A stretch of 64,000 bases of DNA, from the NCBI RefSeq assembly GCF_020085105.1, contig NC_058063.1, positions 16,477,262 through 16,541,261 of the forward strand, written 5' to 3'. Every line of letters starts with the position of its first letter. Position 1 is the first letter of the stretch. Shown piece by piece: positions 20,947 through 62,131 of this stretch. The notes beneath the pieces were generated by a model. The model had not been told where the DNA came from and did no database searches. It was given only the letters and a program-made list of their open reading frames with translations. Source of the DNA: Siniperca chuatsi (taxonomy: Eukaryota > Chordata > Actinopteri > Centrarchiformes > Sinipercidae). The translations under genes and the position numbers were made by a program.

Positions 20947-21082
20947 GATATGTGACAAACATTGACAGAGTGTGTGACAAGCAGCCAACACAAGGTCTCA
21001 CATTCAGTATTAAAGACTCATCTTAATCCTCGCTGGACTACAGAAGCCACTTTCATCTCCTGACTGATTGTGATATCCCATC

Positions 21083-21934
21083 ATGCCACTGATCGTGTTT
21101 CCCACCTCCCAGCTGCTATGGGTGCGTGTAGCTGCCCTGCTGTTCACCTGCGTGGCGTTCAGTGTCGCAGCACATGGAGCCTCACTGCCCCACGGAGGCA
21201 TGGCTGACTGGTGCATCTTCTGCTGGGCGTTCAGCTTCGCCTGCACCCTGCTGGTCCTGCTGGTGGAGCAGTGCGGCCTCCAGGCCCGAGCCCCAGTGTC
21301 TTGGTCCAATTTCCCCATCACTATCGCCTGCTATGCTGCCCTCCTCTGCCTCTCTGCCTCTGTCATCTTCCCACTTTTTTTCCTTAAGGACCAGCGGTTC
21401 TATGGCGAGGTTCGCGACTATCGCATTGCCTCCACCATTTTCTCCTGCCTGGCAGCGGTAGCCTACATGGGGGAGGTGACCCTGACAAAAGCGAGGCCAG
21501 GAGAGGTGGCAGGTTACATGGCTACGGCACCAGGCCTGTTGAAGGTGTGCCAGACCTTTGTGGCCTGTGTTATCTTCATCCTGGTCAGCGACCCTGTGTC
21601 GTATGACCACCACGCAGCGCTCAAGTGGTGCATGGCCGTGTATTGCATCTGCTTCATCCTCTCCATGGCTGTGGTGGTGCTGTGTGTGGGCGAGTGCACC
21701 GGCTGTCTCCCCATCCCCTTCTCCAAGTTCCTGTCAGCTTACGGGCTCCTGGCGGTTATCATGTACTTGACCGCTACCATCATCTGGCCCGTGTTCCAGT
21801 TTGACAAACAGTACCAGCGTAGAACCCAGGCATCGTCAAAACTGATCACTGTGGCGGTGCTCACTGCCCTCAACTTCCTGCTTTACCTCGCTGACCTGGC
21901 CTATTCTGCCAGACTAGTGTTTGTCAGTGCCTGA
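21083..21934 (+). CDS. myadm: Myeloid-associated differentiation marker-like (MYADM) membrane protein
   Basis: A 283-residue four-times-two-pass membrane protein with two MARVEL modules; MYADM family proteins act in membrane rafts and cell-junction/cortex organisation. About eight hydrophobic segments can be read (near residues 10-32, 40-62, 76-98, 112-132, 150-172, 182-205, 216-240, 252-275). Diagnostic text includes EQCGLQARAPVSWSNFPITI, CYAALLCLSAS, KARPGEVAGYMATAPGLLKV, and the ending NFLLYLADLAYSARLVFVSA, very like mammalian MYADM. The coding region is one uninterrupted exon preceded by a splice acceptor at 20945-20946, as in other MYADM genes. The ATG at 21083 is the first in frame that gives the usual length. 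Its 3' end was duplicated to about 50.4 kb. Confidence 0.93.
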   Translation: MPLIVFPTSQLLWVRVAALLFTCVAFSVAAHGASLPHGGMADWCIFCWAFSFACTLLVLLVEQCGLQARAPVSWSNFPITIACYAALLCLSASVIFPLFFLKDQRFYGEVRDYRIASTIFSCLAAVAYMGEVTLTKARPGEVAGYMATAPGLLKVCQTFVACVIFILVSDPVSYDHHAALKWCMAVYCICFILSMAVVVLCVGECTGCLPIPFSKFLSAYGLLAVIMYLTATIIWPVFQFDKQYQRRTQASSKLITVAVLTALNFLLYLADLAYSARLVFVSA

Positions 21935-23658: not shown

Positions 23659-24260
23659 ATGGACGGTAAGTAAACACTGCACATTAAGTTGCAAGATGCA
23701 GAAATCTAAATAATAGCTGTTGTTATTATTATGTTAGTATGTTATTATAACACCTGCACACTGTAAAAAATGATTGATCATTTGACAATCATTTTAAATC
23801 ATTTTTTACAGTGTGCAGGTGTTACACTTAGATAGCTGCCATCGATCTTCTTTGTGAACTGTGATTGGTACTTAGAAGAAATTAGATACATACATACATC
23901 TTGATCATTAATATGCTTGTGGGCCTCTTTTTATTTATGCAGCTATTTTATAAGTACGAACTGCTTTCCCTTTTCATTGTGCGTTTTGACCAATGAGTAT
24001 TTTTTATTGTAATTGAGCTCATGTGTATCTTCTTACATATAAAAACAGCCAAAAGACAAATGCACAGTATTACTGATGGACATTATTCTCTTTCAGTGTC
24101 AAACAGAAGAATTGTCATTATAGGAAAAACTGAAGCTGGGAAAAGCAGGAAATATCTCAGAGAGCAGGCTAAAGGCAGCGTACTTATAAAGCTTTTGATC
24201 AAACTGGCATGTATTGGAACAGGTGCATTGTTAGGAGCTTTTTATGGTGTAGTAGTGTGA
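23659..24260 (+). pseudogene. GIMAP fragment 1: P-loop fused to C-terminal tail
   Basis: Exon 1 ATGGACG (23659-23665, donor GTAAGT) and exon 2 from 24097 keep normal splice sites. The spliced frame gives MDVSNRRIVIIGKTEAGKSR, then directly REQAKGSVL and a hydrophobic GTGALLGAFYGVVV, stopping at 24260 (56 residues). The G2-G5 part of the GTPase is missing through an internal deletion; C-terminal GIMAP text follows out of frame to about 24400. It cannot be a GTPase. The same deletion occurs at 55.8 and 57.0 kb, so it happened once and was then duplicated. Confidence 0.8.
23748..23824. repeat. Perfect inverted repeat, 28-bp arms
   Basis: Arms 23748-23775 and 23797-23824 are exact reverse complements around a 21-bp loop, starting TAACACCTGCACACTGTAAA. 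It lies in the intron of GIMAP fragment 1. The duplicate near 55500 keeps only the right-arm sequence, so this hairpin may be a small MITE-like insertion or a template-switch event. Confidence 0.85.
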
Positions 24261-24469
24261 AGACACACCACAGGAAGCAGCAAAGGGAGAGGCTGTCAAG
24301 AACGGAGCCCTATTTGTCAATGATGCAGCAAATGATGTTACGAACAGTAACATCAGCCAAAATTAAAACAGTCAAAGCCTATAATGAGCTGTGACTCTTG
24401 AAGAAGGGAGAGATAATATATAATTAAAAAGTCATATCTCCCTGTAGATTAAATGAAAATCTTGGTCTA

Positions 24470-25725
24470 AAAGATATTTGACCATCGATTATGTTTATTC
24501 ATATATATGTAATAGGTTGTACTTCTTGTCTGAGCTTATTGTCACATATTCCTGTTTCACGAGCTAACCACAGAGTGTTGGTTTGATGTGCTGTTTCTGT
24601 ATTCCTGTCATTGCTCACCGTTTCCTGTTGCAAAAGCTAACCAGAAAATATCGCTTCTGATGCTCCTGCTAAAGTAGTTGTGGTTCTTTGTGGATTACAA
24701 CGTATCAGCGAGGCAAATATGAGCACTCAATACATTGAAACCTATGAAAAAGTTTATTTTAGCAAATTTAGTTTTTAGGGTAATCAGTTTATGAATGGTA
24801 CATTGGGATAATTAAAACAATTTCATAACAGAGGAGGCCAAATATGTTTATCAAAGATTACTGCAAAGAGTGAAACAAGACTAAGAGTCTACGGCCATGC
24901 TAGCAGCTCTGTGAGGCTGTACGGAGGCACAGCATGATAACATCCTCATAATGGCAATGCTAACATGATGATGTTCAGTAGGTGTGATGCTAATCATGTC
25001 ATCATTTTAGTTTAGTGTGTTAGGTTTTTGATAATTAGCACAAAACATATAGTACAGTTGAGGCTTTTGTCATTGATCGGGTGTTATTAGTTCTGCAGGT
25101 TTTTTGTCTTAAACCAAACTACTGCTCAAATTTGGACCTGCTGGTGGTGCGAGATGAAAAGTCTGAAAGATGAAATATTTCAGTCTGAACCAAAGTGGTG
25201 GACCGACCAACAGACCAACTCTGCCATCCTTACAGTCTTGCTGCTAGCATGGCTAAAAAGCATCCCTCCATCATTACAGGAAACGAGAGCAAAGCCACCA
25301 TCACTAAACTGTGGCCAACCCAAACACTATAAGAACGTAGGCCACTAAATCTATTAATCAGCTATGCAACAGGCTACTCTTATATATAATTGTTCCTGTG
25401 TAATATTTGTTTTATTCCAACATTTATTAACATGTAATATTACTATACCCCATAATTAATTTATAGTTTATTCATGTTTTGTTGGCGTAGTGTGTAGCTG
25501 TCCAAACTTCTCCTTCATTAATAGTTAATTGTGCATTTTACACCTTTTGTCGTCCCTTTTCTATCTATAATTTGCAGCATGCAATGCTGTGTAATGCTCC
25601 CAGAAAATGCCTTGTAATAGTCAATATCATGTTTGGACACCTGATGGCAGTCTCATGTTAATTCTTGTTGGACAACAAGAGAGGGAATGAACTCACCAAA
25701 TGGCCCCACACTTCAAACAGCAAGT
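24470..25725. repeat. GIMAP 3' flank and spacer unit
   Basis: No gene. Contains the 3' flank repeated after most copies (TAATAGGTTGTACTTCTTGT, CCACAGAGTGTTGGTTTGAT, CTGTTGCAAAAGCTAACCAG) and then a spacer that reappears almost unchanged at 28485-29100 and 31860-32474. From about 25110 the match to the next unit is near perfect. A short open frame at 25154 is not conserved in the homologous region at 61.1 kb. Confidence 0.8.
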
Positions 25726-25746
25726 GAAAGTGAAACTAGAATAAAA
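25726..25746 (+). promoter_or_regulatory. ISRE match and TATA-like box before GIMAP copy 1
   Basis: GAAAGTGAAACT (25726-25737) fits the interferon-stimulated response element GAAANNGAAACT exactly, and ATAAAA (25741-25746) follows at once. The start codon is about 100 bp downstream. Copy 2 has the same element, and copy 3 has a variant (GAAATTGAAACT) that still fits. Confidence 0.6.
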
Positions 25747-25838
25747 CCTGCGTCAGAGCACAGGAGAAAAGACACACAGGGCTGTCGTCTGGTAGATCCA
25801 AATTAATTTTAATCTTTGCTGATTTCTCTTTTAACAGC

Positions 25839-27546
25839 ATGGACGGTGAGTTAAGGTCACTTCTTTCAGTTATTATTATTTGTTCACACTGCTCATTATA
25901 TATGAATCTAACATAACTATGACGTATATTCCAGAAACTCATATTTTGGCTAAATTATCCTTTGAATGATCACATTTGAAAGGGCTAAGTATTGCAATCA
26001 AATCAGTACTGGATCATGTAAAATGAAGGAGCCAAGCATGCAGCCTCCTGTGTGAAAGAAGACTGCAAAGAAGGCTGGGTCACTTCTCTCTTGTGTATAC
26101 ATGCCTACTTCCTTTCACATTCTTGGATTAGTAGAGCAGCTGTTATTACAGTGTGTCAGATACATATTTAATCGACATTTAGGTAAATATAGGTCTTGTA
26201 TCGGACTCAGTATCAAATACCCAATGTTAATAGACTCAGATTGGGATCAGGGCCAAAAAACCTGATCATCCCGATTAAAAGTTGTTTACAACATGATCCT
26301 CAGTGTTCTTTACCACAATAGATTAACTTATATTGTTGAACAGTGATTGGTACTGTTAGAAGACTTTAAATACATATGATGTTTATGATCATTAATATGC
26401 TCGTAGGTGTCTTTTTATGTATTGACACCATTCTTCGTTCCCTTATTATGCTAATGTGATTTTTGACCAATGAAGATTTTTATTGTAATTGAGTTTATAT
26501 GTATCTTTTTGTATATGAAAACAGCCAAAAGACAAATGTACAGCATAAATGATGGACATTATTCTCTTTCAGTGTCAAACACAATGAGAATTGTCATCTT
26601 AGGAAAAACTGAAGCTGGGAAAAGCAGCCTGGCTAACACCATATTTGGAGAGAAACTGTTCAAGATCGACCATTCTCTCAACTCTGGAACAATAAAATGT
26701 CAATCAAAAACCAAATCTGTCAATGGAAGAAGCATCACTTTGATTGACACTCCTGGTTACTTTGGCACAGATAGATCTGAGGAGGAGCTGGAGTCTGAGA
26801 TAGTGAGGTGTATCACAGAGTGCTCTCCTGGGCCTCATGCTTTTCTCATCGTGCTTAAAGTGGAGAGATTCACAGAGCAGGAGCAGGCTGTCATCACTAA
26901 AATACATCAATACTTTTCTGAAGAAGTCTTCAAATACGCAACAGTAGTCTTTACTCATGGAGACCAGCTCCCTGAAGGACAGACAATTGAGGATTTTGTC
27001 TGTCTGAATAAGTTGATGAGTGATCTGGTGAAGACATGTGGCAGCCGGTGCCACGTCATTGATAATAAATACTGGAACGAAGACCCAAAGGATAAATACA
27101 GAAGCAACCAGTTCCAGGTGGAGGAGCTTCTTAAATCAATAGACAAAATGGTGCTGGCAAACAATGAAAGCTGCTACACCTGTAAGATGCTACAAGTAGT
27201 GGAGGAAGAAATACAACAAGAGGAGGAGCAGATTAGAAACAAGTCAGAGATCAGAGAGCAGGCTAAGGTCAGTGTTTTTAAGAGGCTTTTGATCCAAGTG
27301 GCAGGTATTGCAAAAGGTGCATTGTTCGGAACTTTCTTGGGTGTAGCATTGAGTGGAGTATCTTCAGTGTCATTAAGCACACTTACACTGGCATTTGCTG
27401 TAGTGGGAGCAGTGATAAGAGGTGTTACAGAATATGTTAAAGCTGAGGGAGCAGACACACCACAGGAAGCAGCAGAGAGGGCAGCAGAGGCTGTCAAGAA
27501 TGAAGCCCAATCTGTCTTAGATGAAGCAAATGATGTTTTGGACTGA
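25839..27546 (+). CDS. GIMAP-type AIG1 GTPase, copy 1
   Basis: GTPase of the immunity-associated AIG1/GIMAP family, GTP-binding proteins linked in vertebrates to lymphocyte survival and membrane-bound scaffolds. Exon 1 is ATGGACG (25839-25845, donor GTGAGT); exon 2 is 26573-27546. Together they encode 326 residues starting MDVSNTMRIVILGKTEAGKS. The G1 P-loop is GKTEAGKSS (13-21), G3 is LIDTPGYF, the family box reads CSPGPHAFLIVLKVERFTEQ, G4 is FTHGDQL and G5-like is RCHVIDNK. The C-terminus has a coiled-coil stretch (EEEIQQEEEQI), a hydrophobic segment (about 265-300) and an amphipathic AEGADTPQEAAERAAEAVKN tail. A frame opening at 26470 inside the intron is not used, because exon 1 supplies M-D. 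Upstream ISRE at 25726. Confidence 0.88.
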
Positions 27547-29100
27547 CCATTACAGCCAAAGTTAAAACAGAGTCATGAGAAAAAATGAGCCGTGACTCTT
27601 GAAGATGTGGGAGAGAATGTATCATTAAAAAGTCATATCTCCTTTTATATTGCATGAAAATCTTGTTCTAAATGATCTGCAATCATTGAGCTGACTATGT
27701 TCATTCATATGTAATATGTAATAAGTTGTACTTCTTGTCTGAGCTTCAAACTTCAGACACTTATTCCTGTTTCATGAGCTAACTACAGAGTGTTGGTTTG
27801 ATGTGTTGTCCAGTGCATGTACTGTAAACTGTAACCACAAAAATGAAGATAAAACATTTTTTACAGCATTCAAAAGATCTTAAAAATTGTTTAAATAAAA
27901 CCAGTGTACACTGTTGGCTGTATTTCTGTCTGCTCTTAAAATATTTGTCACTTTTTCCTGTTGCAAAAGCTAACCAGAAAATCTCACTTAATGCATGTAC
28001 AACATGATTAAGTCATTCTGATGCTCCTGCAAAAATAGTTGTGGTTCTTTATGGATTATAATATATCACCAAGGCAAATATGAACAATTAATACATTGAA
28101 ACCTATGGAAAAAATGTATTTGAGTAAATAAAGTTTTTACTTGGTAAGGTAATCAATTTATGAATGGTACATTGGGATAATTAAATTGATTTCATAAAAG
28201 AGGAGGTAAAATATATTTATCAAAGATTACTGCAAAGAGTGAAACAAGACTAAGAGTCTACGGCCATGCTAGCAGCTCTGTGAGGCTGTACGGAGGCACA
28301 GCTAATGTCAGCATAACATCCTCATAATGGCAATGCTAACATGATGATGTTCAGTAGGTGTAATGTTAATCATGTCATCATCTTAGTTTAGTGTGTTAGG
28401 TTTTGATAATTAGCACAAAACATATAGTACAGTTGAGGCTTATGTCATTGATCGGGTGTTATTAGTTTTGCAGGTATTTGGTCTTAAACCAAACTACTGC
28501 TCAAATTTGGACCTGCTGGTGGTGCGAGATGAAAAGTCTGAAAGATGAAATATTTCAGTCTGAACCAAAGTGGTGGACCGACCAACAGACCAACTCTGCC
28601 ATCCTTACAGTCTTGCTGCTAGCATGGCTAAAAAGCATCCCTCCATCATTACAGGAAACGAGAGCAAAGCCACCATCACTAAACTGTGGCCAACCCAAAC
28701 ACTATAAGAACGTAGGCCACTAAATCTATTAATCAGCTATGCAACAGGCTACTCTTATATATAATTGTTCCTGTGTAATATTTGTTTTATTCCAACATTT
28801 ATTAACATGTAATATTACTATACCCCATAATTAATTTATAGTTTATTCATGTTTTGTTGGCGTAGTGTGTAGCTGTCCAAACTTCTCCTTCATTAATAGT
28901 TAATTGTGCATTTTACACCTTTTGTCGTCCCTTTTCTATCTATAATTTGCAGCATGCAATGCTGTGTAATGCTCCCAGAAAATGCCTTGTAATAGTCAAT
29001 ATCATGTTTGGACACCTGATGGCAGTCTCATGTTAATTCTTGTTGGACAACAAGAGAGGGAATGAACTCACCAAATGGCCCCACACTTCAAACAGCAAGT
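27547..29100. repeat. 3' flank of copy 1 plus spacer to copy 2
   Basis: No gene. A near-identical block follows copy 2 (30921-32474), and 27547-28500 is also closely matched after copy 7 (60180-61130). It contains AATAAAAC near 27894 and AGTAAATAAAG near 28123 as candidate polyadenylation signals. Confidence 0.75.
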
Positions 29101-29121
29101 GAAAGTGAAACTAGAATAAAA
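29101..29121 (+). promoter_or_regulatory. ISRE match before GIMAP copy 2
   Basis: GAAAGTGAAACT at 29101-29112, followed by ATAAAA, identical in sequence and spacing to copy 1. Confidence 0.6.
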
Positions 29122-29213
29122 CCTGCGTCAGAGCACAGGAGAAAAGACACACAGGGCTGTCGTCTGGTAGATCCAAATTAATTTTAATCTTTGCTGATTT
29201 CTCTTTTAACAGC

Positions 29214-30920
29214 ATGGACGGTGAGTTAAGGTCACTTCTTTCAGTTATTATTATTTGTTCACACTGCTCATTATATATGAATCTAACATAACTATGACGT
29301 ATATTCCAGAAACTCATATTTTGGCTAAATTATCCTTTGAATGATCACATTTGAAAGGGCTAAGTATTGCAATCAAATCAGTACTGGATCATGTAAAATG
29401 AAGGAGCCAAGCATGCAGCCTCCTGTGTGAAAGAAGACTGCAAAGAAGGCTGGGTCACTTCTCTCTTGTGTATACATGCCTACTTCCTTTCACATTCTTG
29501 GATTAGTAGAGCAGCTGTTATTACAGTGTGTCAGATACATATTTAATCGACATTTAGGTAAATATAGGTCTTGTATCGGACTCAGTATCAAATACCCAAT
29601 GTTAATAGACTCAGATTGGGATCAGGGCCAAAAAACCTGATCATCCCGATTAAAAGTTGTTTACAACATGATCCTCAGTGTTCTTTACCACAATAGATTA
29701 ACTTATATTGTTGAACAGTGATTGGTACTGTTAGAAGACTTTAAATACATATGATGTTTATGATCATTAATATGCTCGTAGGTGTCTTTTTATGTATTGA
29801 CACCATTCTTCGTTCCCTTATTATGCTAATGTGATTTTTGACCAATGAAGATTTTTATTGTAATTGAGTTTATATGTATCTTTTTGTATATGAAAACAGC
29901 CAAAAGACAAATGTACAGCATAAATGATGGACATTATTCTCTTTCAGTGTCAAACACAATGAGAATTGTCATCTTAGGAAAAACTGAAGCTGGGAAAAGC
30001 AGCCTGGCTAACACCATATTTGGAGAGAAACTGTTCAAGATCGACCATTCTCTCAACTCTGGAACAATAAAATGTCAATCAAAACCAAATCTGTCAATGG
30101 AAGAAGCATCACTTTGATTGACACTCCTGGTTACTTTGGCACAGATAGATCTGAGGAGGAGCTGGAGTCTGAGATAGTGAGGTGTATCACAGAGTGCTCT
30201 CCTGGGCCTCATGCTTTTCTCATCGTGCTTAAAGTGGAGAGATTCACAGAGCAGGAGCAGGCTGTCATCACTAAAATACATCAATACTTTTCTGAAGAAG
30301 TCTTCAAATACGCAACAGTAGTCTTTACTCATGGAGACCAGCTCCCTGAAGGACAGACAATTGAGGATTTTGTCTGTCTGAATAAGTTGATGAGTGATCT
30401 GGTGAAGACATGTGGCAGCCGGTGCCACGTCATTGATAATAAATACTGGAACGAAGACCCAAAGGATAAATACAGAAGCAACCAGTTCCAGGTGGAGGAG
30501 CTTCTTAAATCAATAGACAAAATGGTGCTGGCAAACAATGAAAGCTGCTACACCTGTAAGATGCTACAAGTAGTGGAGGAAGAAATACAACAAGAGGAGG
30601 AGCAGATTAGAAACAAGTCAGAGATCAGAGAGCAGGCTAAGGTCAGTGTTTTTAAGAGGCTTTTGATCCAAGTGGCAGGTATTGCAAAAGGTGCATTGTT
30701 CGGAACTTTCTTGGGTGTAGCATTGAGTGGAGTATCTTCAGTGTCATTAAGCACACTTACACTGGCATTTGCTGTAGTGGGAGCAGTGATAAGAGGTGTT
30801 ACAGAATATGTTAAAGCTGAGGGAGCAGACACACCACAGGAAGCAGCAGAGAGGGCAGCAGAGGCTGTCAAGAATGAAGCCCAATCTGTCTTAGATGAAG
30901 CAAATGATGTTTTGGACTGA
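29214..30920 (+). pseudogene. GIMAP copy 2: 3,375-bp tandem duplicate of copy 1 with a one-base frameshift
   Basis: Exon 1 ATGGACG at 29214-29220 and exon 2 at 29948-30920, offset 3,375 bp from copy 1 up to the lesion. The residue text matches copy 1 except that the A-run in CAATCAAAAACC has four instead of five A near 30082, which shifts the frame right after the switch-I region (about residue 45). After the shift the open frame resumes without any other damage to the stop at 30920. Either this is a very young pseudogene or the missing A is a homopolymer sequencing/assembly error and the gene is intact. Confidence 0.8.
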
Positions 30921-32474
30921 CCATTACAGCCAAAGTTAAAACAGAGTCATGAGAAAAAATGAGCCGTGACTCTTGAAGATGTGGGAGAGAATGTATCATT
31001 AAAAAGTCATATCTCCTTTTATATTGCATGAAAATCTTGTTCTAAATGATCTGCAATCATTGAGCTGACTATGTTCATTCATATGTAATATGTAATAAGT
31101 TGTACTTCTTGTCTGAGCTTCAAACTTCAGACACTTATTCCTGTTTCATGAGCTAACTACAGAGTGTTGGTTTGATGTGTTGTCCAGTGCATGTACTGTA
31201 AACTGTAACCACAAAAAATGAAGATAAAACATTTTTTTACAGCATTCAAAAGATCTTAAAAATTGTTTAAATAAAACCAGTGTACACTGTTGGCTGTATT
31301 TCTGTCTGCTCTTAAAATATTTGTCACTTTTTCCTGTTGCAAAAGCTAACCAGAAAATCTCACTTAATGCATGTACAACATGATTAAGTCATTCTGATGC
31401 TCCTGCAAAAATAGTTGTGGTTCTTTATGGATTATAATATATCACCAAGGCAAATATGAACAATTAATACATTGAAACCTATGGAAAAAATGTATTTGAG
31501 TAAATAAAGTTTTTACTTGGTAAGGTAATCAATTTATGAATGGTACATTGGGATAATTAAATTGATTTCATAAAAGAGGAGGTAAAATATATTTATCAAA
31601 GATTACTGCAAAGAGTGAAACAAGACTAAGAGTCTACGGCCATGCTAGCAGCTCTGTGAGGCTGTACGGAGGCACAGCTAATGTCAGCATGATAACATCC
31701 TCATAATGGCAATGCTAACATGATGATGTTCAGTAGGTGTAATGTTAATCATGTCATCATCTTAGTTTAGTGTGTTAGGTTTTGATAATTAGCACAAATA
31801 GTACAGTTGAGGCTTATGTCATTGATCGGGTGTTATTAGTTTTGCAGGTATTTGGTCTTAAACCAAACTACTGCTCAAATTTGGACCTGCTGGTGGTGCG
31901 AGATGAAAAGTCTGAAAGATGAAATATTTCAGTCTGAACCAAAGTGGTGGACCAACCAACAGACCAACTCTGCCATCCTTACAGTCTTGCTGCTAGCATG
32001 GCTAAAAAGCATCCCTCCATCATTACAGGAAACAAGAGCAAAGCCACCATCACTAAACTGTGGCCAACCCAAACACTATAAGAACGTAGGCCACTAAATC
32101 TATTAATCAGCTATGCAACAGGCTACTCTTATATATAATTGTTCCTGTGTAATATTTGTTTTATTCCAACATTTATTAACATGTAATATTACTATACTCC
32201 ATAATTAATTTATAGTTTATTCATGTTTTGTTGGCGTAGTGTGTAGCTGTCCAAACTTCTCCTTCAATAATAGTTAATTGTGCATTTTACACCTTTTGTC
32301 GTCCCTTTTCTATCTATAATTTGCAGCATGCAATGCTGTGTAATGCTCCCAGAAAATGCCTTGTAATAGCCAATATCATGTTTGGACACCTGATGGCAGT
32401 CTCATGTTAATTCTTGTTGGACAACAAGAGAGGGAATGAACTCACCAAATGGCCCCACACTTCAAACATAAAGT
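30921..32474. repeat. 3' flank of copy 2 plus spacer to copy 3
   Basis: Homologous throughout to 27547-29100, with only small indels (for example CAGCATGATAAC against CAGCATAAC). No gene. Confidence 0.78.
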
Positions 32475-32486
32475 GAAATTGAAACT
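32475..32486 (+). promoter_or_regulatory. ISRE match before GIMAP copy 3
   Basis: GAAATTGAAACT. The two spacer bases differ from copies 1 and 2 but the fixed bases are all kept, about 100 bp before the start codon. Confidence 0.58.
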
Positions 32487-32587
32487 AGAATAAAACCTGC
32501 GTCAGAGCACAGGAGAAAAGACACACAGGGCTGTCGTCTGGTAGATCCAAATTAATTTTAATCTTTGCTGATTTTTCTTTTAACAGC

Positions 32588-34915
32588 ATGGACGGTGAGT
32601 TAAGGTCACTTTTTTCAGTTATTATTATTTGTTCACACTGCTCATTATATATGAATCTAACATAACTATGACGTATATTCCAGAAACTCATATTTTGGCT
32701 AAATTATCCTTTGAATGATCACATTTGAAAGAGCTAAGTATTGCAATCAAATCAGTACTGGATCATTTAAAATGAAGGAGCCAAGCATGCAGCCTCCTGT
32801 GTGAAAGAAGACTGCAAAGAAGGCTGGGTCACTTCTCTCTTGTCTGTACATGCCTACTTTCTTTCACTTTGTCTTTTTAAAAAATGTATTTCTCATTCCT
32901 AGTATCAACTACTTTAGGTGGCAAAATGGGAAAATGTGTTGGTTTGGGGGTAGAAATAAATCACCCCAGAAACAAAACATGCAGGAAGTTAGTGTTAGTG
33001 AATGTTCATCTTTGAGGGTAGAGCCATTTTAACATTCTGTTAAATAAAATGTATTCAAATCTGGGCTGTGTCTGACACATTTAGACTATATTTAAGCACT
33101 GCCCCAGATTAATAAATCAGATAATCACAAATACATACCATTTTGTTCAAGCATGACCTCTATTTGTCCCTTCACCAAACACAAATAAAGCACCTCTGGT
33201 TAATGTTCAACCTAAAGGGATGAGAAAATCCATCCATATCATATCAATAATTTAAGTTTATCAACTTAATAGTTTTGAACCAGGACCTCCAAGTATTTGG
33301 ATTAGTAGTGCAGCTGTTATTACAGTGTGTCAGATACATATTTAATCGACATTTAGGTAAATATAGGTCTTGTATCGGACTCCGTATCAAATACGGAGCC
33401 AAAAAACCTGATCATCCCGATTAAAAGCTGTTTACAACATGATTCTCAGTGTTCTTTACCACAGTAGATTAACTTATATTGTTGAACAGTGATTGGTACT
33501 GTTAGAAGACTTTAGATACATGTGATATTTTTGATTATTAATATGCTCTTTTTATGCACTGTCACCATTCTGCGTTTTTTGTAATTGAGCTCATGTGTCT
33601 CTTTTTATATACGAAAACAACCAAAACACACACATGTACAGTTTAATTAATTGATTATCGTCTTTCAGTGTCAAACAGGAGAATTGTCCTGCTGGGAAAA
33701 ACTGGATATGGGAAAAGCAGCCTGGCTAACACCATATTTGGAGAGAAACTGTTCACGATCAGCCATAATCTCAACTCTGAAACAATAAAATGTCAATCAA
33801 AAACCAAATCTGTCAATGGAAGAAGCATCACTTTGATCGACACTCCTGGTTTCTTTGACACAGTTATGTCTGAGGAGGAGCTGAAGCCTGAGATAGTGAG
33901 GTGTATCACAGAGTGCTCTCCTGGGCCTCATGCTTTTCTCATTGTGCTTAAAGTGGAGAGATTCACAGAGCAGGAGCAGGCTGTCATCAACAAAATACAT
34001 CAATACTTTTCTGAAGAAGTCTTCAAATATGCAACAGTTATTTTTACTCATGGTGACCAGCTCCCTGAAGGACAGACAATTGAGGATTTTGTCTGTCTGA
34101 ATAAGATGATGAGTGATTTGGTGAAGAAATGTGGCAGCCGGTGCCACGTCATTGATAATAAATACTGGAACGAAGATCCAAAGGATAAATACAGAAGCAA
34201 CCAGTTCCAGGTGGAGGAGCTTCTTAAGTCAATAGACAAGATGGTGATGAAAAACAAAGGAAGCTGCTACACTAATGAGATGCTACAAGCAGTGGAGGAA
34301 GAAATACAACAAGAGGAGGAGCACATAAGACTGTTATCAGGAAACATGTCAGAGGAAGAGGTCAGAGAGCAGGCCAAGGGCAGAGTACACACGGCGCTTT
34401 CGGTCAGATTAGCAGGTATTGGAACAGGTGCATTGTTAGGAGCTTTGTTTGGTGTAGTAGTGCTGGGTGGATTAGTTGTCACAGTTTTAAAGAAGATAGC
34501 CCCATTGAAAGATTTAGCCAAAGCAGCAACAACTGCTGCAGAAGCATTTGGAGTAATAGGAGAAGCAACAGCAGGAGGAGCAGCAGCAGGAGGAGCAGCA
34601 GCAGGAGGAACAGCAGCAGCTGCAGGAGGAGCAGCTGCAGGAGGAACAGCAGCAGCTGCAGGAGGAGCAGCAGCAGGAGGAGAAACAGCAGCAGCTGCAG
34701 GAGCAACAGGAGGAGCAGTTGGAGTGTCAGTAGGTGCAGTTATAGGGACATCTGCTGCAGTGGGAGCACTAATAGGAGGTGTTACAGGATATTATACAGC
34801 TGAGGGAGCAGACACACCACTGGATGCAGCAAAGAGGACAGCAGAGGCTGTCAAGAATGGAGCCCTATCTGTCTTAGATCAAGCAAATGATGTTTTGGAC
34901 AAAATGTTCCTGTAA
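32588..34915 (+). CDS. GIMAP-type AIG1 GTPase, copy 3, with Gly/Ala-rich tail
   Basis: Exon 1 ATGGACG (32588-32594), exon 2 33669-34915, 417 residues from MDVSNRRIVLLGKTGYGKSS. G1 is GKTGYGKSS (12-20), G3 LIDTPGFFDT, family box CSPGPHAFLIVLKVERFTEQ, G4 FTHGDQL, G5-like RCHVIDNK. After the EEEIQQEEEHI helix a hydrophobic segment (GTGALLGALFGVVVLGGLVV) leads to an imperfect repeat of GGAAAGG/GGTAAAA units (residues about 300-352), then SVGAVIGTSAAVGALIGG and the AEGADTP tail. The repeat carries many G-x3-G spacings and would suit packing of membrane helices. The intron holds a 440-bp stretch (32858-33296) absent from copies 1 and 2, in which I recognise nothing. Confidence 0.88.
34560..34720 (+). 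repeat. GCAGCAGGAGGA-type in-frame repeat of copy 3
   Basis: Imperfect repeats of GCAGCAGGAGGA and GCAGCTGCAGGA within exon 2, all multiples of three, encoding Gly/Ala runs. The antisense leucine-rich and other open frames over it are by-products of this composition. Confidence 0.9.
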
Positions 34916-36830: not shown

Positions 36831-37632
36831 TGAAATCAAGAGAAGTCACTGCAGCAGCAGCAGCAGCAGTACGGCACGTCTGCTGCAGCCACTGCTGTGT
36901 GGTTTGATCACATTTGATTGTCAGCAGCAACATGAGCAAACAGTCCCACAACTGTCATCAGACTTTGATTCAAATATTGCTAAACTCTGACTGGTGCATT
37001 CATACATGACATCACCCTCTTCCAATGAAGCCCTGCTCATGTAGTATGTACTTTATAGTTAATGTATATTTCAGCAGGTAACCAGACCTGTGCTCTGATG
37101 GGACGCTTTATTTGTGACCCAAAGTCACTAATGTGCTCCTAACATTCCCTTCTCGTCAACCCAACTGCCCCCCAGGTCTGAGTACGTGGACCAGTTGGAA
37201 TGAGTTAATCTAGACTTACAGCTGAACTATTTGTGTTTGACAGAGTGAAATATTTGTTTATATTTACTGTCTAAATTGACAGTTTCTGCTGTAGCCGAGT
37301 CTCCTACAGGAAACGTCTTGAGTATTTAGTCGAGCAAAGAATTAAGATTAATATTGATGAAAAAAAGTCCTACATGTTTTCCTGTCTTTTCACAATCAGA
37401 TTATCAATAAACCAAAAACATGTGATGGAATATTTCTGTTTAATGGTGGCTATACCGTGAAATGAGATGTGCGTGAGATAACCTACAGTATGCTTTTTTT
37501 TTTGACTTCTTCCACTGTGCAACAAGTCAGGAAGTGAAAATGACACAAGATACAGGAAACATATTCACATACACACTGGCAGTTTTGTCACTCGACTAAC
37601 TGTCTCTCCACAGTTACTTCACTTTTCACAAC
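36831..37632 (+). promoter_or_regulatory. GIMAP copy 4 upstream region, type B, with ETS-IRF motif
   Basis: Homologous to 22978-23658, 42590-43419, 51376-52073 and 61330-62131. It contains GGAAGTGAAA at 37530-37539, an exact match to the ETS-IRF composite element GGAANNGAAA (PU.1 with IRF4/8), about 94 bp before the start codon. A 3' splice site (ctctccacag) lies just before the ATG, so a non-coding first exon is possible. Confidence 0.5.
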
Positions 37633-39485: not shown

Positions 39486-40890
39486 AACCTATAATGAGCC
39501 AAGACTCTTGAAGAAGTCGGAGATAATATATGATTTAAAAGTCATATCTCCCTGTAGATCAAATGGAAATCTTACTCTAAAAATATTTAACCATTGAGCT
39601 GATTATGTTTATTCATATGTAATATGTAATACGTTGTACTTGTCTGTTATTCCTGTTTCACAAGCTAACCACAGAGTGTCGGTTTGATAAGTTGTCCAGT
39701 GCTGTAAACTGTAACCACAAACCACAAAGATAAAACATTTTTAACAGCATCTGTAGAGAAGAATTTAAAGATTGTTTAAATCAAACAAGTGTACGCTGTT
39801 GGCTGTATTTCTGTCTCCTGTTATAACATTGCTCAGCATTTCCTGTTGCAAAAGCTAACCAGAAAATATCTCTTAATGTATGTACAACATGATTTTGTTA
39901 GACAGGCCTTCTGATGCTCCTGCTAAAAGAGTTGTGGTTCTTTGTGGATTACAATGAATCACTAAGGCAAATATAAAGAATGAATAAACTGAAACCTATG
40001 AAAAATTGTCATTTGAGCAAATAAAGTTTTACTTGGTAAGGTAATCAATTTATGAATGGTACATTGGGATAATTAAATTGATTTCATAACAGAGGAGGTA
40101 AAATATGTTTAGCAAAGATTACTGCAAAGAGTGAAACAAGACTAAGAGTCTACAGCCATGCTAGCAGCTCTGTGAAGCTGTACGGAAGCACAGCTAATGT
40201 CAGCATGCTAACATCCTCACAATGTTGATGCTAACATGATGTTTAGTAGGTGTAATGTTAATCATGTCATCATGTTAGTTTAGCATGTTAGGTTTTGATA
40301 ATTAGCACAAAACATATAGTACAGCTGAGGCTTATGTCATTGATCGGGTGTTTTGCAGATATTTGGTCATGAACCAAAGTATTGGACAATTAGCAATATT
40401 AATCTGCTAGTGTCGCTAGAGAAAAAGTCAGAGGATCACCAAAGTCATTATTAAAAGTTAGTTTACTATCACTAAACTGTGGCCAACACAAAGGATATAA
40501 GTTTGTAGGCCAATAGCTATCCAACATGCTACTTTTCATAATTTTTCTTGTATAATATTTGCTTTATTCCAGTGTAACATGTACCGTTACTGTACTACAT
40601 AATTCATTTATAGTTTCCTCAGGATTTGTTGCCACAGCCTGTAGCTGTCCACACTTTTCTTTGAATAACAGTTAATTGTACATTTTAACACCTTTTGTTG
40701 GTCCTGTTCTATCTCTATAAATTTCAGCATGAACACAATGCTGTGTAATGCTCCCAGAAAATGCCTTGTAATAGTCAGTATCATGTTTGGATCCCTGCCG
40801 GCAGTCTCATGTTAATTCTTGTTTGACCACAGCGATTGAACTCCCCAAATGCCCCCACACTGTGAAGTGAAACTAGAATATAACCTTTGT
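39486..40890. repeat. 3' flank of copy 4 and decayed type-A unit
   Basis: No gene. 39486-40360 is the usual GIMAP 3' flank. 40360-40890 is a degraded copy of the spacer and promoter of copies 1-3, ending in GAAGTGAAACTAGAATATAA near 40866, where the ISRE has lost one base. No exon 1 follows. Confidence 0.7.
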
Positions 40891-40924
40891 CAGGAGAAAA
40901 GACACACACACACACATACACACA

Positions 40925-41439: not shown

Positions 41440-41604
41440 GGATTATCTTAAGCAGTCCCATTATATTAAAAAAATGAGGACATCTCTACGGCAGATATCT
41501 CCAAAACTCGGCAACTCACACCAAAACAATCTAGATGGATAAATAGTACTACAGGTAAGAGGAAAAATACGGATTTGTGATTTTGGGGTGAACTGTCCCT
41601 TTAA
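41440..41604. repeat. Dispersed repeat (TTAAAGGGACAGTTCACCCC family)
   Basis: On the minus strand this starts TTAAAGGGACAGTTCACCCC and includes GAGATATCTGCCGTAGAGAT. Such phrases are very common in fish genomes. The same head occurs at 12574 in the arhgef11 intron. Class not certain (probably a DNA-transposon derivative). Confidence 0.5.
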
Positions 41605-41849
41605 TGTGCAGGATGCAGAAATTTAATAATAGCTGGGGTTTTTTTGTCAAATTATTTTTGCAGTGCATAGCTGCTACACTGAGATGGCTGCCAAAAGACT
41701 GTTCTTCTTTTTTTTACATAATGTAAAATGTGATGCTCTCATACTTAAAAGCTAAGGATGTGGATGTCACGAGCCGATCCTAAGTGACCGACACATGATT
41801 GATCAGGGCATATGTTAATCGATCGTTATCAGCTGAAATACTGTGAAGC

Positions 41850-42590
41850 CTGTAGATTCAATGAAAATCTTGTTCTAAAGAAACTTCAACCATTGAGGTG
41901 ATTATGTTTATTCATATGAAATATGTAATAGGTTGTGCTTCTTGTCTGAGCTTCAAACTTTAGTCACTTATTCTTTTTTCATGAGCTAACCACAGAGTGT
42001 GTTGGTTTGATGTGTTGTGTACTGTAAACTGTAACCACAAACCAAGAAGATAAAACATTTTAACATCTTTTGTAGAGAAGATCTTAAAGATTGATTAAAT
42101 CAAACAAGTGTACGCTGTTGGCTGTATTTTATTTGAGCAAGTTTTTTAATTAATTGATGGGACATTTGAATCTAGACTCAACCTAATAGTGTCACTAGAT
42201 GTAAAAGTCTCTGCACACCATGAATGTCATCCTTTGAGCCAGATTAAAATTAATAATACAAAATATAGTCAATAAATCAAGTATGATAGGGTAGGGTTAG
42301 GGTTTGATTATAGATTAAGATAAAACTATATTGATCCCCATGGGGAAATTCACAAGATACCCAGCAGATAAAGTAGCTAAAATTTGCCCCACCTTTAGCG
42401 GCTTCAACATTAAAGTGATGCTTACACATTAATGCATCAGTAGTTTTAATCCAATAATATAATAAACATTATTCTGAAACGGGTCATTATGCATAATGAG
42501 TACTTTTACTTTTGGTACTTTAAGATTATTTTGATGCCAATACTTTTCTACTTTTGCATAAGTCAAAATTTTACGGTGAGTACTGTGCAG
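41850..42590. repeat. Orphan GIMAP 3' flank (copy of 45870-46770)
   Basis: Matches the 3' flank of copy 5 closely, including the TTGATCCCCATGGGGAAATT stretch, but there is no GIMAP gene upstream. It is what remains of a deleted unit, or a duplicated flank. No coding capacity. Confidence 0.75.
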
Positions 42591-43419
42591 CAGTACGGCA
42601 GGTCTGCTGCAGCCACTGCTGTGTGGTTTGATCACATTTGATTGTCAGCAGCAACATGAGCAAACAGTCCCACAACTGTCATCAGACTTTGTATTAAAAT
42701 ATTGCTAAATTCTGATTGGTGCATTCATACATGACATCACCCTCTTCCAATGAAGCCCTGCTCATGTAGGACTCCATCACCCAGAGTAACAAGCTGCTTG
42801 AGAAAATGTTTTCAGGACCTTAAAGTACCCTTTACTTTACAGTTAATGTATATTTCAGCAGGTAACCAGACCTGTGCTCTGATGGGACGCTTTATTTGTG
42901 TCCCAAAGTCATTAATGTGCTCCTAACATTCCCTTCTCGTCAACCCAACTGCCCCCCAGGTCTGAGTACGTGGACCAGTTGGAATGAGTTAATCTAGACT
43001 TACAGCTGAACTATTTGTGTTTGACAGAGTGAAATATTTGTTTATATTTACTGTCTAAATTGACAGTTTCTGCTGTAGCCGAGTCTCCTACAGGAAACGT
43101 CTTGAGTATTTAGTCGAGCAAAGAATTAAGATTAATATAGATGAAAAAAAGTCCTACATGTTTTCCTGTCTATTCACAATCAGATTATCATTAAACCAAA
43201 TACATGTGATGGAATATTTCTGTTTAATGGTGGCTATACCGTGAAATGAGATGTGCGTGAGATAACCTACAGTATGCTTCTTTTTTTTTTGACTTCTTCC
43301 ACTGTGCAACAAGTCAGGAAGTGAAAATGACACAAGATACAGGAAACATATTCACATACACACTGGCAGTTTTGTCACTCGACTAACTGTCTCTCCACAG
43401 TTACTTCACTTTTCACAAC
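42591..43419 (+). promoter_or_regulatory. GIMAP copy 5 upstream region, type B, with ETS-IRF motif
   Basis: Near-identical to the region before copy 4. GGAAGTGAAA lies at 43317-43326, about 94 bp upstream of the start codon, in the same context (AGTCAGGAAGTGAAAATGAC). Confidence 0.5.
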
Positions 43420-45792
43420 ATGGACGGTAAGTTAATTTCTTTCAGTTATTCCTGTCAGGACTGAACAATGCACATTAAGTTGCAAGATGCAGAAATGTAA
43501 ATAATAGCTGTTCTGTTTTAAATAATTTCTGACAGTTTACAGGTGCTAGGCTAAATTTAGATGACGGCCATAGATCTAATTGTGCTTTTGTTTCTTTTTT
43601 TTTTTAACTTAATGCAAATAGTGATCCTTGCATACTTAGAGTGAAAATTAGAGTGTGTGATTATCAACAATTATTTGATTGCACCGGTGATTTACTCTGT
43701 TCGGATATTAGGCAGGCCATAAACCTGCTTTTTGTCGAGCTCTCTTGCTTTCTGCAAGATGGTGTCTGTGCTCTGCTAAATACTGCTTGTGCGGTGAAAG
43801 AAGCGTCACTCTGTAACACATCTGTACAATCGCGAGTGGACTGAGGGTTTCAGTAGCTCCAACAACTCTACAGAGTGAGACGTCCTCTCTGCTGCTGATC
43901 GCGTCACGACAGTTTGAGGGATCGCGTTCTTCCAGTTAAACTTTCCTCATTAACATAATCAATGATTTAAGCTTATACATTTAATAGTTCTGAACCAGGA
44001 CCTCCAGTGGATAAAGTGTCTTGTGAAAAATGAGTTGTCTACCGCTGTAATTTCAATGTGTCAGATACACATTTAATCAGCATTTAGATAATTATAAGTA
44101 TCGGACTGGACACAGTGTTTAGATACCCAAAATAAAAGGACTCAGATCGCCAAAATAAAACCCCTGATCATCTCGATTAAAAGCTGTTTACAAAATGATC
44201 CTCAGTGTTCTTTACCACAATACATTGACTTATATTGTTGAACAGTGATTGGTATACTGTTAGATACATAAGTTGTTCTTAATCATTATTTGGCTTGTGG
44301 GCCTCTCTTTATGTATTGACACCATTATTTATTCTCTTATTGTGCTAATGCAGCTATTTTAGTACAAACAGCTTTTCCTTTTCATTGTGATTTTTGACCA
44401 ATGAGGATTTTTTTTGTAATTGAGCTCATGTGTCTCTTTTTATATACGAAAACGACCAAAACACACAAATGTACAGTATAATTAATTGATTATCGTCTTT
44501 CAGTGTCAAACAGGAGAATTGTCATCCTGGGAAAAACTGGAGCTGGGAAAAGCAGCCTGGCTAACACCATATTTGGAGAGAAACTGTTCACGATCGGCCA
44601 TTCTCCCAACTCTGAAACAAGTGAATGTCAATCAAAAACCAAATCTGTCAATGGAAGAAGCATCACCTTGATTGACACTCCTGGTTTCTTTGACACAGAT
44701 AGATCTGAGGAGGAGCTGAAGTCTGAGATAGTGAGGTGTATCACAGAGTTCTCTTCTGGGCCTCATGCTTTTCTCATTGTGCTTAAAGTGGAGAAATTCA
44801 CAGAGCAGGAGCAGGCTGTCATCACTAAAATATGCCAGTATTTCTCTGAAGATGCTCTAAAATATGCTGCAGTTGTCTTCACTCATGGTGACCAGCTCCC
44901 TGATGGAATGAAAATTGAGGAGTTTGTCAGTCAGAATAAGAATCTGAGTTGTCTGGTGAAGAAATGTGGCAGCCGGTGCCACGTCATTGATAATAAACAC
45001 TCGAACGAAAACCCAAAGGATAAAAACAGGAGCAACCAGTTCCAAGTGGAGGAGCTTCTTAAGTCAATAGACAAGATGGTGATGAAAAACAACGGAAGCT
45101 GCTACACCAATGAGATGCTACAAGCAGTGGAGGAAGAAATACAACAAGAGGAGGAGCACATTAAACTGTTATCAGGAAACATGTCAAAGGAAGAGGTCAG
45201 AGAGCAGGCTAAGGGCAGAGTATACACAAAGCTTTCTGTCAGATTAGCAGGTATTGGAACAGGTGTATTGTTAGGAGCTTTGTTTGGTGTGGTAGTGCTG
45301 GGTGGATTAGTTGTCTTACCATTGAAAGCTTTAGCCGTAGCAGTTTCAGGACGAGTAGCAGCAGTTGCTGGAGAAACAGCAGCCGCAGTTGCAGGAGCAG
45401 CAGCAGCAGGAGAAACAGCAGCCGCAGTTGCAGGAGCAGCAGCTGCAGGAGAAACAGCAGCAGCTGCAGGAGCAGCAGCTGCAGGAGGAACAGCAGCAGC
45501 TGCAGGAGCAGCAGCAGCAGGAGGAGCAGCAGCAGCAGGAGAAACAGCAGCAGCTGCAGGAGCAGCAGTAGGAGTAGCTGGAGTGTCAGTAGGTATAGTT
45601 ATAGGGACATCTGCTGCAGTGGGAGCAGTGATGGGAGGTGTTACAGGATATCATGCAGCTGAGGGAGCAGACACACCACTGGATGCAGCAAAGAGGACAG
45701 CAGAGGCTGTCAAGACTGGAGCCCTATTTGTCTTAGATCAAGCAAATGATGTTTTGGAGAGATTATCACAGTCAAAGTTAAAACAGAGTTAA
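43420..45792 (+). CDS. GIMAP-type AIG1 GTPase, copy 5, with the longest Gly/Ala tail
   Basis: Exon 1 ATGGACG (43420-43426), exon 2 44504-45792, 431 residues from MDVSNRRIVILGKTGAGKSS. G1 GKTGAGKSS, LIDTPGFFDT, box FSSGPHAFLIVLKVEKFTEQ (the usual CSPGPH is FSSGPH here), G4 FTHGDQL, G5-like RCHVIDNK. The segment ITKICQYFSEDALKYAAVVF through MKIEEFVSQNKNLSCL differs from copies 1-4 and 7 and instead matches the partial copy 6, a sign of gene conversion. After a hydrophobic GTGVLLGALFGVVVLGGLVV the tail has about 70 residues of AAAAGETAAA/AGAAAAGG repeats, then GVSVGIVIGTSAAVGAVMGG and the AEGADTP tail. Intact. Confidence 0.88.
45350..45585 (+). repeat. In-frame trinucleotide-rich repeat of copy 5
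   Basis: Repeated GCAGCAGCAGGAGAAACA and GCAGCTGCAGGAGCA words, all in phase, encoding Ala/Gly/Glu/Thr. A glutamine-rich open frame in a second reading frame (45365-45571) is a composition artefact. Confidence 0.9.
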
Positions 45793-50571: not shown

Positions 50572-52073
50572 GAAGAAAAAAGATGAAAGAGGAAGACACA
50601 TTAAGTGATGAAGAACAGAAGGGGATAAGAGCTCAAGTGGCTGAATTTCTGACAAACAATTTCCCACTTAAAAACCAACAGAAGGTTTTTAAGTGGGAGA
50701 AAATGTTTTTACTGTATCTGAGACACACAGCCACTCTGGTGGCTGGTGGGGAAGCTTCTTGTGCAAAACATGGGCACTCTCATCACAACCTCAGAAAGAT
50801 TTGTTCAATTTCCTTCCTATTATCTTTTGTTAATAAGGTTTTGGGGGGAAAAAATACTTCAGCAGTCCTTTTGTCTTGATAACAAAGTATCAGTATTGAA
50901 ATGTTGGAAAGAATGTAATTTGAGCAAATAAAGTTTTTGTTTATGATGTGATGGACTGTGCTATGTGCTGTGATTGTGGTTACACTATGTGTTGTGGCTT
51001 TCATAATGCAGTGATGAAGACAATTGCAACATCCCTTTGTTGCTCCCTCTGTCACCGTGTATTCAGTAAGGAAATTAAATGGCTGACAGAAATGCACTTT
51101 TTTCTATACTGACATTGTGGACTGTGAGTTAAAGTTATCCTTATCCTTATTCTATGTTATCCTTTAAAAGCATCACCATACATGCTGATAAGAGAGTAGA
51201 CATTCTGAATGACAAGTTTTAATGAATAGTGATATTTCTTTAACTCAAAACTCATATCTAAGTTATCCAGAGAAAGTACAGATAAAACAACCTATTATTG
51301 TTAACATGTGAATGTTATGAGGAGAATGTTATAAAGTGGGGAAGCTGCTTGGTTTGACAGAGAGATGTGTATTGATTCAGACTTTCTGAAATCAAGAGAA
51401 GTCACTGCAATAGCAGCAGCAGCAGCAGTACGGCATGTCTGCTGCAGTCACTGCTGTGTGGTTTGATCACATTTGATTGTCAGCAGCAACATGAGCAAAC
51501 AGTCCCACAACTGTCATCAGACTTTGTAGTGAAATATTGCTAAACTGTGATTGGTGCATTCATACATGACATCACCCTCTTCCAATGAAGCCCTGCTCAG
51601 ATTTGTGCTCATGTAGGACTCCATCACCCAGAGTAACAAGCTGCTTGAGAAAATGTTTTCAGGACCTTAAAGTACCCTTTACTTTACAGTTAATGTATAT
51701 TTCAGCAGGTAACCAGACCTGTGCTCTGATGGGACACTTTATTTGTGACCCAAAGTCACTAATGTGCTCCTAACATTCCCTTCTCGTCAACCCAACTGCC
51801 CCCCAGGTCTGAGTACGTGGACCAGTTGGAATGAGTTCATCTAGACTTACAGCTGAACTATTTGTGTTTTACAGAGTGAAATATTTGTTTATATTTACTG
51901 TCTAAATTGACAGCTTCTGCTGTAGGTGAGTCTTCTATCGGACATATCTTGAGTATTTAGTCAAGGTAAAAAACAAAAAAACTGGCATCCAAACTAAGAT
52001 ATAGGAAACATATTCACATAAACTCTGGCAGTCTTGTCACTCGGATTAATTGTCACTCCACAGTTTTGACAGC
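50572..52073. repeat. Duplicated myadm 3'UTR and GIMAP upstream block
   Basis: Parallel to 21935-23658, with a high match (for example 51376-51780 against 22978-23380). It has no ETS-IRF or ISRE match before the exon-1 ATG. No gene. Confidence 0.85.
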
Positions 52074-56995: not shown

Positions 56996-57244
56996 GTGTC
57001 AAACAGAAGAATTGTCATTATAATAAAAATAATATAATAATAATAATAAAAACTGAAGCTGGGAAAAGCAGGAAATATCTCAGAGAGCAGGCTAAAGGCA
57101 GCGTACTTATGAAGCTTTTGATCAAACTGGCATGTATTGGAACAGGTGCATTGTTAGGAGCTTTTTATGGTGTAGTAGTGCGAAGCAGCAAAGGGAGAGG
57201 CTGTCAAGAACGGAGCCCTATTTGTCAACGATGCAGCAAATGAT
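56996..57244 (+). pseudogene. GIMAP fragment 3 (internally deleted, with AT-rich insertion)
   Basis: Same P-loop-to-tail deletion as fragments 1 and 2. A short ATAATA-rich expansion (about 57021-57050) splits VIIG from KTEAGKSR. No exon 1 is found upstream. Its 3' flank (CTGTATTCCTGTCATTGCTC) is closer to that of fragment 1 than of fragment 2. Confidence 0.75.
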
Positions 57245-61320: not shown

Positions 61321-62131
61321 GTAAAGTCAGCAGCAACATGAGCAAACACTCACAACTCTCTCACACGAATCTCACAAGTCTCACAACTTTTATCAGACTT
61401 TGATTCAAATATTGCTAAACTCTGATTGGTGCATTCATACATGACATCACCCTTTTCCAATGAAGCCCTGCCCAGATTTGTGCTCATGTAGGACTCCATC
61501 ACCCAGAGTAACAAGCTGCTTGAGAAAAAGTTTTCAGGACCTTAAAGTACCCTTTACTTTACAGTCAATGTATATTTCAGCAGGTAACCAGATCTGTGCC
61601 CTGATGGGACGTTTTATTTGTGTCCAAAAGTCACTAATGTGCTCCTAACATTCCCTTCTCGTCAACCCAACTGACCCCCAGGTCTGAGTACGTGGACCAG
61701 TTGGAATAAGTTCATCTGGACTTACAGCTGAACTATTTGTGTTTGACAGAGTGAAATATTTGTTTATATTTACTGTCTAAACTGACAGTTTCTGCTGTAG
61801 CCGAGTCTCCTACAGGAAACGTCTTGAGCATTTAGTCGAGCAAAGAATTAAGATTAATATTGATGAAAAAAAGTCCTACATGTTTTCCTGTCTTTTATCA
61901 GATTATCATTAAACCAAAAACGTGATGGAATATTTCTATTTAATGGTGGCTATACCGTGAAATGAGATGTGCGTGAGATAACCTACAGTATGCTTTTTTT
62001 TGGACTTCGTCCACTGTGCAACAAGTCAGGAAGTGAAAATGACACAAGATACAGGAAACATATTCAAATACACACTGGCAGTTTTGTCACTCGACTAATT
62101 GTCTCTCCACAGTTACTTCACTTTTCACAAC
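61321..62131 (+). promoter_or_regulatory. Upstream region of copy 8, type B, with ETS-IRF motif
   Basis: Homologous to the blocks before copies 4 and 5, lacking the CAG-rich patch. GGAAGTGAAA is retained at 62029-62038. Confidence 0.45.

Follow-up and report, generated by a model that had tools for sequence, protein, structure and literature searches.

Do the matches to the interferon-stimulated response element (ISRE) that precede tandem GIMAP genes in a 64,000-nucleotide stretch of Siniperca chuatsi (contig NC_058063.1, positions 16,477,262 to 16,541,261 of the forward strand; hereafter the window) point to interferon control of part of this cluster? A first-pass annotation of the window had proposed such control from three perfect ISRE matches and had read their likeness as constraint. 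The present analysis reduces the three matches to effectively one site, placed in a proximal promoter and present again where that promoter was copied. Control of copies 1 and 3 by interferon or interferon regulatory factors (IRFs) through the copied ISRE module is the reading that we judge probable, although far from secure. Interferon-stimulated gimap genes in fish, and single proximal ISREs driving interferon-stimulated genes (ISGs) of fish, are already known; the promoter capture and a possible switch between an ISRE and an ETS-IRF composite element (EICE) are the noteworthy part.

Position and number of the response elements

The window contains precisely three occurrences of the pattern GAAANNGAAACT, at 25726, 29101 and 32475, always on the plus strand, so that all three matches reported in the first-pass annotation were recovered. 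In every case a coding exon 1 of 7 nt follows (ATGGACG followed by GT; exon positions 25839, 29214 and 32588), and the pattern begins at -113 relative to its ATG, in agreement with the equal spacing of about 100 bp to the start codon described earlier.

25726..25737, plus strand: ISRE of copy 1, GAAAGTGAAACT, at -113 from the ATG
29101..29112, plus strand: ISRE of copy 2, GAAAGTGAAACT, in a promoter that is as in copy 1 throughout
32475..32486, plus strand: ISRE of copy 3, GAAATTGAAACT, differing in one base, at a free position

The full 13-base teleost ISRE consensus, (G/A/T)GAAAN(1-2)GAAA(G/C)(A/T/C), is also present, at 25725, 29100 and 32474; the consensus is taken from a passage of PMC3296712, and the corresponding passage of PMC4514678 gives NN only. 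On both strands of the window this consensus has eight sites, three of which fall within the nine 500-bp regions upstream of exon 1s. Three of the nine regions bear one site each and the other six bear no ISRE; for the three ISRE copies, the upstream 500 bp contained neither a second ISRE nor a gamma-activated sequence (GAS) of the form TTCNNNGAA or TTCNNNNGAA. A TATA-like AATAAA lies two bases 3′ of the copy 1 ISRE. A proximal-promoter ISRE is thus found in 3/9 exon-1 promoters, with distance measured from the ATG and the transcription start site (TSS) a putative one.

What is improbable by chance is the position of the ISRE, not the number of ISREs. Dinucleotide shuffling of the window gave a mean of 0.41 occurrences of GAAANNGAAACT (sd 0.64), and three were reached in 0/100 shuffles, though this test counts the three ISREs as independent when all are copies of one site. 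For a single independent ISRE, 0.37-0.41 are expected per 64 kb, so one site per window is nothing unusual. An order-3 Markov model predicts about 0.0012 ISREs for a promoter of 200 bp. This figure, like the P values given below, is optimistic because the choice of the motif, of the 200-bp window and of the alignment windows followed inspection of the sequence. Just 3.5% of the window falls in the 250 bp that precede an exon 1.

Copying of the 5′ module and the make-up of copy 3

The units that carry the elements, together with a decayed relative, are as follows.

25400..28774, plus strand: tandem unit copy 1, with ISRE 5′ module, exon 1, intron, GIMAP exon 2 and 3′ flank (self-BLAST, gene model, Pfam)
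25839..25845, plus strand: coding exon 1 of copy 1, ATGGACG, with donor GTGAGT (gene model)
28775..32148, plus strand: tandem unit copy 2 (self-BLAST, alignment, gene model)
32149..32870, plus strand: ISRE-type 5′ module of copy 3, 98.1% identical to copy 1, the match ending at about 32870
33669..34915, plus strand: GIMAP exon 2 of copy 3, giving with exon 1 a 417-aa open reading frame (ORF)
40553..40908, plus strand: decayed ISRE-type 5′ module, with 45 mismatches in 348 bases aligned to copy 1

Copies 1 and 2 are head-to-tail 3.4-kb units of 99.6% identity, which differ by two substitutions and five indels, none of them in the promoter; by this measure copy 1 was duplicated in tandem very recently to give copy 2. 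Exon 1 is the same in both, and the coding part of exon 2 differs by a single homopolymer base, too little for short unique reads to tell the two apart; further differences lie on the 3′ side, near 27838-28423 and 31213-31797. Copy 3 is distinguishable from them by its body. The gene model of copy 1 predicts an intron of 727 nt and an intact ORF of 326 aa. Three tandem GIMAP units had been described and three are present, but as assembled copy 2 is frameshifted: one A is missing from a run of five at 30080, which shifts the frame after 48 codons and leads to a stop at 58 aa.

Copy 3 was compared in 120-bp steps with five other copies. Up to 32868 it is 97-99% identical to copy 1 and shows no likeness in the regions of copies 4-7, except to exon 1 of copies 4 and 5; over the whole 722-bp 5′ module there are 14 substitutions relative to copy 1, one of them inside the ISRE. 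The next 360 bp or so match none of the five copies compared. Within intron 1, the stretch 33229-33588 is a mosaic, beginning with 98% identity to copy 1 over 52 bp and continuing with longer copy-1 matches of 78-85%, and it also contains short matches of 91-95% to copies 4, 5 and 7. Beyond this stretch, starting at 33589, the nearest sequence is in most steps copy 4 or 5 and in a few steps copy 6 or 7. Over the first 690 nt of exon 2, copy 3 has an identity of 96.7% with copy 4 and of 93.1% with copy 1. In a tree of seven copies it joins copy 4, with a support of 84/90 that lies below the tool's 95/80 mark for firm support. Judged from these comparisons, copy 3 is a chimera, with an ISRE-type 5′ module placed on a GIMAP body like that of copy 4.

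Since copies 1, 2 and 3 share a duplicated promoter, the three ISREs amount to effectively one independent site; the idea of three independent ISREs was rejected on the identity of the copy 1 and copy 2 promoters and the 98.1% identity of the copy 3 module. This bears on the constraint that had been read from copy 3, in which two free positions of the element were said to have changed. There is a single change, G to T (25730 in copy 1, 32479 in copy 3), and the next-nearest changes are two, 9-10 bases upstream of it (25720-25721). Given 14 substitutions in 722 bp, the ten fixed ISRE bases remain untouched by chance with P = 0.82, which rules out selective constraint as an argument. Three of the 14 substitutions lie within 11 bp at the 5′ side of the ISRE, and clustering of this kind arises somewhere in 15% of random placements; the ISRE region of copy 3 is therefore neither protected nor significantly hot. 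The sameness of the ISREs results from recent duplication and module transfer and is not evidence of selection. Identical motifs in tandem copies are thus no evidence of constraint until duplication has been discounted.

A decayed unit without a gene, with an ISRE broken by one base, had also been reported near 40866. It is present as described: its ISRE, GTGAAGTGAAACT at 40862-40874, is one A short relative to copy 1. An 11-base deletion adjoins this site in the pairwise alignment, and the multiple alignment shows a single 12-base gap. Downstream of the module there is no GIMAP frame, just intron and 3′ remnants at about 41601-42249, which are most like copy 5 (95-98%). Because ten bases stay free of substitution with P = 0.25 at the divergence of this module, its ISRE is equally uninformative on constraint.

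Interferon control weighed against chance and lineage expression

Several gimap genes of other fish are reported as ISGs. In trout, six gimap-like genes from the response to viral haemorrhagic septicaemia virus (VHSV) that is specific to one line are assigned to the non-conserved ISGs, which are distinguished there from genes uninduced by polyinosinic:polycytidylic acid (poly(I:C)) or type I interferon (PMC12648952), and in sea bass an ocean-acidification study lists 36 up-regulated gimap genes under ISG (PMC9204966). These belong to the same gene family as the genes of the window; the passages concerned carry no ISRE or promoter evidence, whereas here the ISRE is known from sequence. In human cells exposed to IFN-beta, the rise reported for GIMAP6 is 5.3-fold in monocytes preactivated with TNF and 2.1-fold in T cells (PMC3633862). 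Among the titles, abstract openings and passages of open-licence papers covered, no report of an ISRE in a fish GIMAP promoter was found.

Single proximal ISREs are reported to drive fish genes. Zebrafish DreI has one at -48 to -39, essential by mutation (PMC3296712), and salmon LGA1 has one 72 bp upstream of the ATG, essential for induction by IFN-gamma (PMC11695323); mutation of the proximal ISREs of Sasa-LIA and Sasa-LGA1 cut reporter activity (PMC11695323). The L-lineage of salmonid major histocompatibility complex (MHC) class I resembles the present cluster in having subgroup-specific promoters in a duplicated family, and the Sasa-LIA ISRE, GAAA-gt-GAAA, is as in copies 1 and 2 (PMC11695323). 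However, Sasa-LIA is described with two ISREs and a GAS-like TTCAGAA, whereas the copies studied here have one ISRE and, within 500 bp, neither of the two GAS forms. The zebrafish IFIT genes are likewise an expanded immune family with an ISRE in part of its members, and the paralogues bearing an ISRE are reported to respond to interferon and poly(I:C) while those lacking it do not (PMC3688568). The tiny coding exon 1 and long exon 2 predicted here also recall the structure given for most mammalian IFITs in PMC3688568. Unlike the zebrafish IFIT case, the genes here are GIMAPs, the response is a predicted one, the ISRE is common by recent copying and one copy is chimeric.

A reading in which the ISRE match is fortuitous or non-functional and was merely carried along by duplication, with GIMAP expression constitutive in lymphoid cells, agrees with the single independent site, expected 0.37-0.41 times in 64 kb, with the lack of any sign of constraint and with the loss of the ISRE from the decayed module. 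It is nevertheless unlikely in view of the placement of the element, 113 bp ahead of the ATG and next to a TATA-like box, the low expectation per promoter, the small share of the window that lies so close to an exon 1, the match to all 13 bases of the teleost consensus and the interferon-stimulated gimap genes of other fish.

Considering these results, we propose the following for interferon control of part of the cluster. One proximal ISRE rides on a 5′ module of about 0.7 kb, comprising upstream sequence, the core promoter, the 7-nt coding exon 1 and the start of intron 1, and this module has spread by duplication and recombination inside the GIMAP tandem array. A very recent tandem duplication of copy 1 produced copy 2; in copy 3 the module sits on a GIMAP body resembling that of copy 4; and a fourth module has decayed, leaving no gene. 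ISGF3 (STAT1-STAT2-IRF9) or IRFs may bind the ISRE just upstream of the putative TSS, so that copies 1 and 3 may be inducible by interferon or virus. The remaining copies may answer to different inputs, which in three cases may be an ETS-IRF element. The earlier claim of interferon control thus remains reasonable, given a proximal match to the teleost ISRE, six of nine promoters without it and trout and sea bass gimap genes reported as ISGs; its conservation argument was wrong, as the identity of the elements reflects recent duplication and module transfer. If this proposal holds, a tandem immune family divides its control by copying one interferon-responsive 5′ module onto different effector bodies, which would help explain the unequal virus response among individual fish gimap genes.

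The nine exon-1 promoters fall into three groups: those with the ISRE (25839, 29214, 32588), those with GGAAGTGAAA (37633, 43420, 62132) and those with neither (23659, 52074, 57904). In the second group, GGAAGTGAAA fits the EICE pattern GGAANNGAAA.

37530..37539, plus strand: EICE-type GGAAGTGAAA of copy 4, at -103 from exon 1 at 37633
43317..43326, plus strand: EICE-type GGAAGTGAAA of copy 5, at -103 from exon 1 at 43420
62029..62038, plus strand: EICE-type GGAAGTGAAA of copy 7, at -103 from exon 1 at 62132, in which the splice donor is altered

The EICE-type sites starting at 37530, 43317 and 62029 stand at nearly the place of the ISRE. Since the three promoters are near-identical copies, with 1 to 6 mismatches in 222-224 aligned bases, the EICE is one independent case. 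Its pattern is also less rare than that of the ISRE, with about 0.01 occurrences expected in 200 bp. When ISRE and EICE promoters were compared from -220 to -60, the best local alignment fell on the element itself, with 19/23 bases identical (CAGCAAGTGAAAGTGAAACTAGA against CAGGAAGTGAAAATGACACAAGA; P 0.006 from 2000 shuffled pairs) and an offset to the ATG that differs by 16 bp. Between the ISRE promoter and the 57904-type promoter, no similarity upstream of -60 was found (P 0.78). Common descent of the two elements is possible on this alignment. A broader scheme, in which array recombination deals ISRE and EICE modules among gene bodies and both elements go back to a single IRF site (about -105 to -121) that switched type by few changes, is doubtful. 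If it held, the cluster would be a natural series of similar GTPase bodies under interferon or lineage control.

IRF8 binding in B cells bears on the same pair of elements. Chromatin immunoprecipitation on microarrays (ChIP-chip) in mouse B cells is reported to have found GAAANNGAAA at sites of IRF8 only and GGAAGTGAAAC, an ETS-IRF composite, where PU.1 also binds; human B-cell lines gave similar ISRE- and EICE-like matrices for IRF8, and mouse Gimap9 stands in the table of IRF8 targets with 'Not determined' in its effect column (PMC3214047). The view that the ISRE is an IRF/PRDM1 or IRF8 site for lymphoid or myeloid lineage expression rather than for an interferon response, with ISRE and EICE as two forms of one IRF input, is improbable: these two motif types, the listing of Gimap9, GGAAGTGAAA at -103 in three other promoters and the alignment of the two promoter classes on the element agree with it, but the binding data come from mammalian B-cell lines rather than fish, and ISREs serve IRF8 and ISGF3 alike, so the lineage and interferon readings are not exclusive.

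The following points weigh against interferon control of copies 1 and 3. Only one of the ISREs counts as independent, so that the case is unreplicated and gives no sign of selection. The assembly does not show copy 2 as an intact gene, and because only two substitutions separate copies 1 and 2 over 3.4 kb, a false tandem duplication in the assembly is possible. Loss of one base from a homopolymer is a common error type of long-read assemblies. The exchange in copy 3 is not one clean join, since the intron 1 mosaic contains copy-1-like pieces. The TATA-like AATAAA is weak and the TSS a predicted one. IRF1, IRF2, IRF8 or PRDM1 may use the same ISRE without interferon. Finally, possession of an ISRE may not decide which gimap copies are inducible, because most induced trout gimap genes are reported to respond in both lines tested and the word ISRE is absent from the main text of that paper (PMC12648952).

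Other GIMAP frames and neighbouring sequence

AIG1 was the best Pfam family in 8/8 GIMAP-region frames scanned, with E 7e-54 for copy 1 and E 1.3e-57 for copy 3; the scan of copy 2 covered just the frame that follows the frameshift, whose match to AIG1 begins at profile position 39. Among solved structures GIMAP7 and GIMAP4 come nearest, and GIMAP7 is the best PDB match (E 1.9e-39). A pattern scan of viral contigs gave 0 matches and a phage search gave no match; a bacterial locus from a contig scan for GIMAP with its flanks (36% over 76 residues) was not used.

No exon 2 acceptor of the kind expected lies within 2.5 kb of exon 1 at 52074. Beside this orphan exon, at 52046-55040 on the minus strand, are frames like pieces of a non-long-terminal-repeat (non-LTR) retroelement; 52934-53476, the sole retroelement-like stretch scanned, matches Pfam RVT_1 (E 6.5e-24). 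In copy 7 (62132-63904) the donor after exon 1 is altered (ATGGACGTTAATT) and the frame stops at 144 aa, with a second open piece at 63503-63904. The frame of exon 1 at 23659 reads 56 aa only. Remnants at 23855-24594, 55561-56286 and 56903-57500 share a deletion that removed the greater part of the G domain (unit positions about 1229-1851), and among them the one behind exon 1 at 23659 keeps the 56-aa frame; a G-domain-deleted gene form seems to have been duplicated.

Ala/Gly-rich tandem repeats of varied length are present in the C-terminal part of copies 3 (34558-34718), 5 (45357-45568) and 6 (59879-59977), and the frames of copies 1 and 4 are without them. Upstream of the GIMAP cluster lies a MARVEL-domain gene (21074-21934, plus strand; E 4.1e-25).

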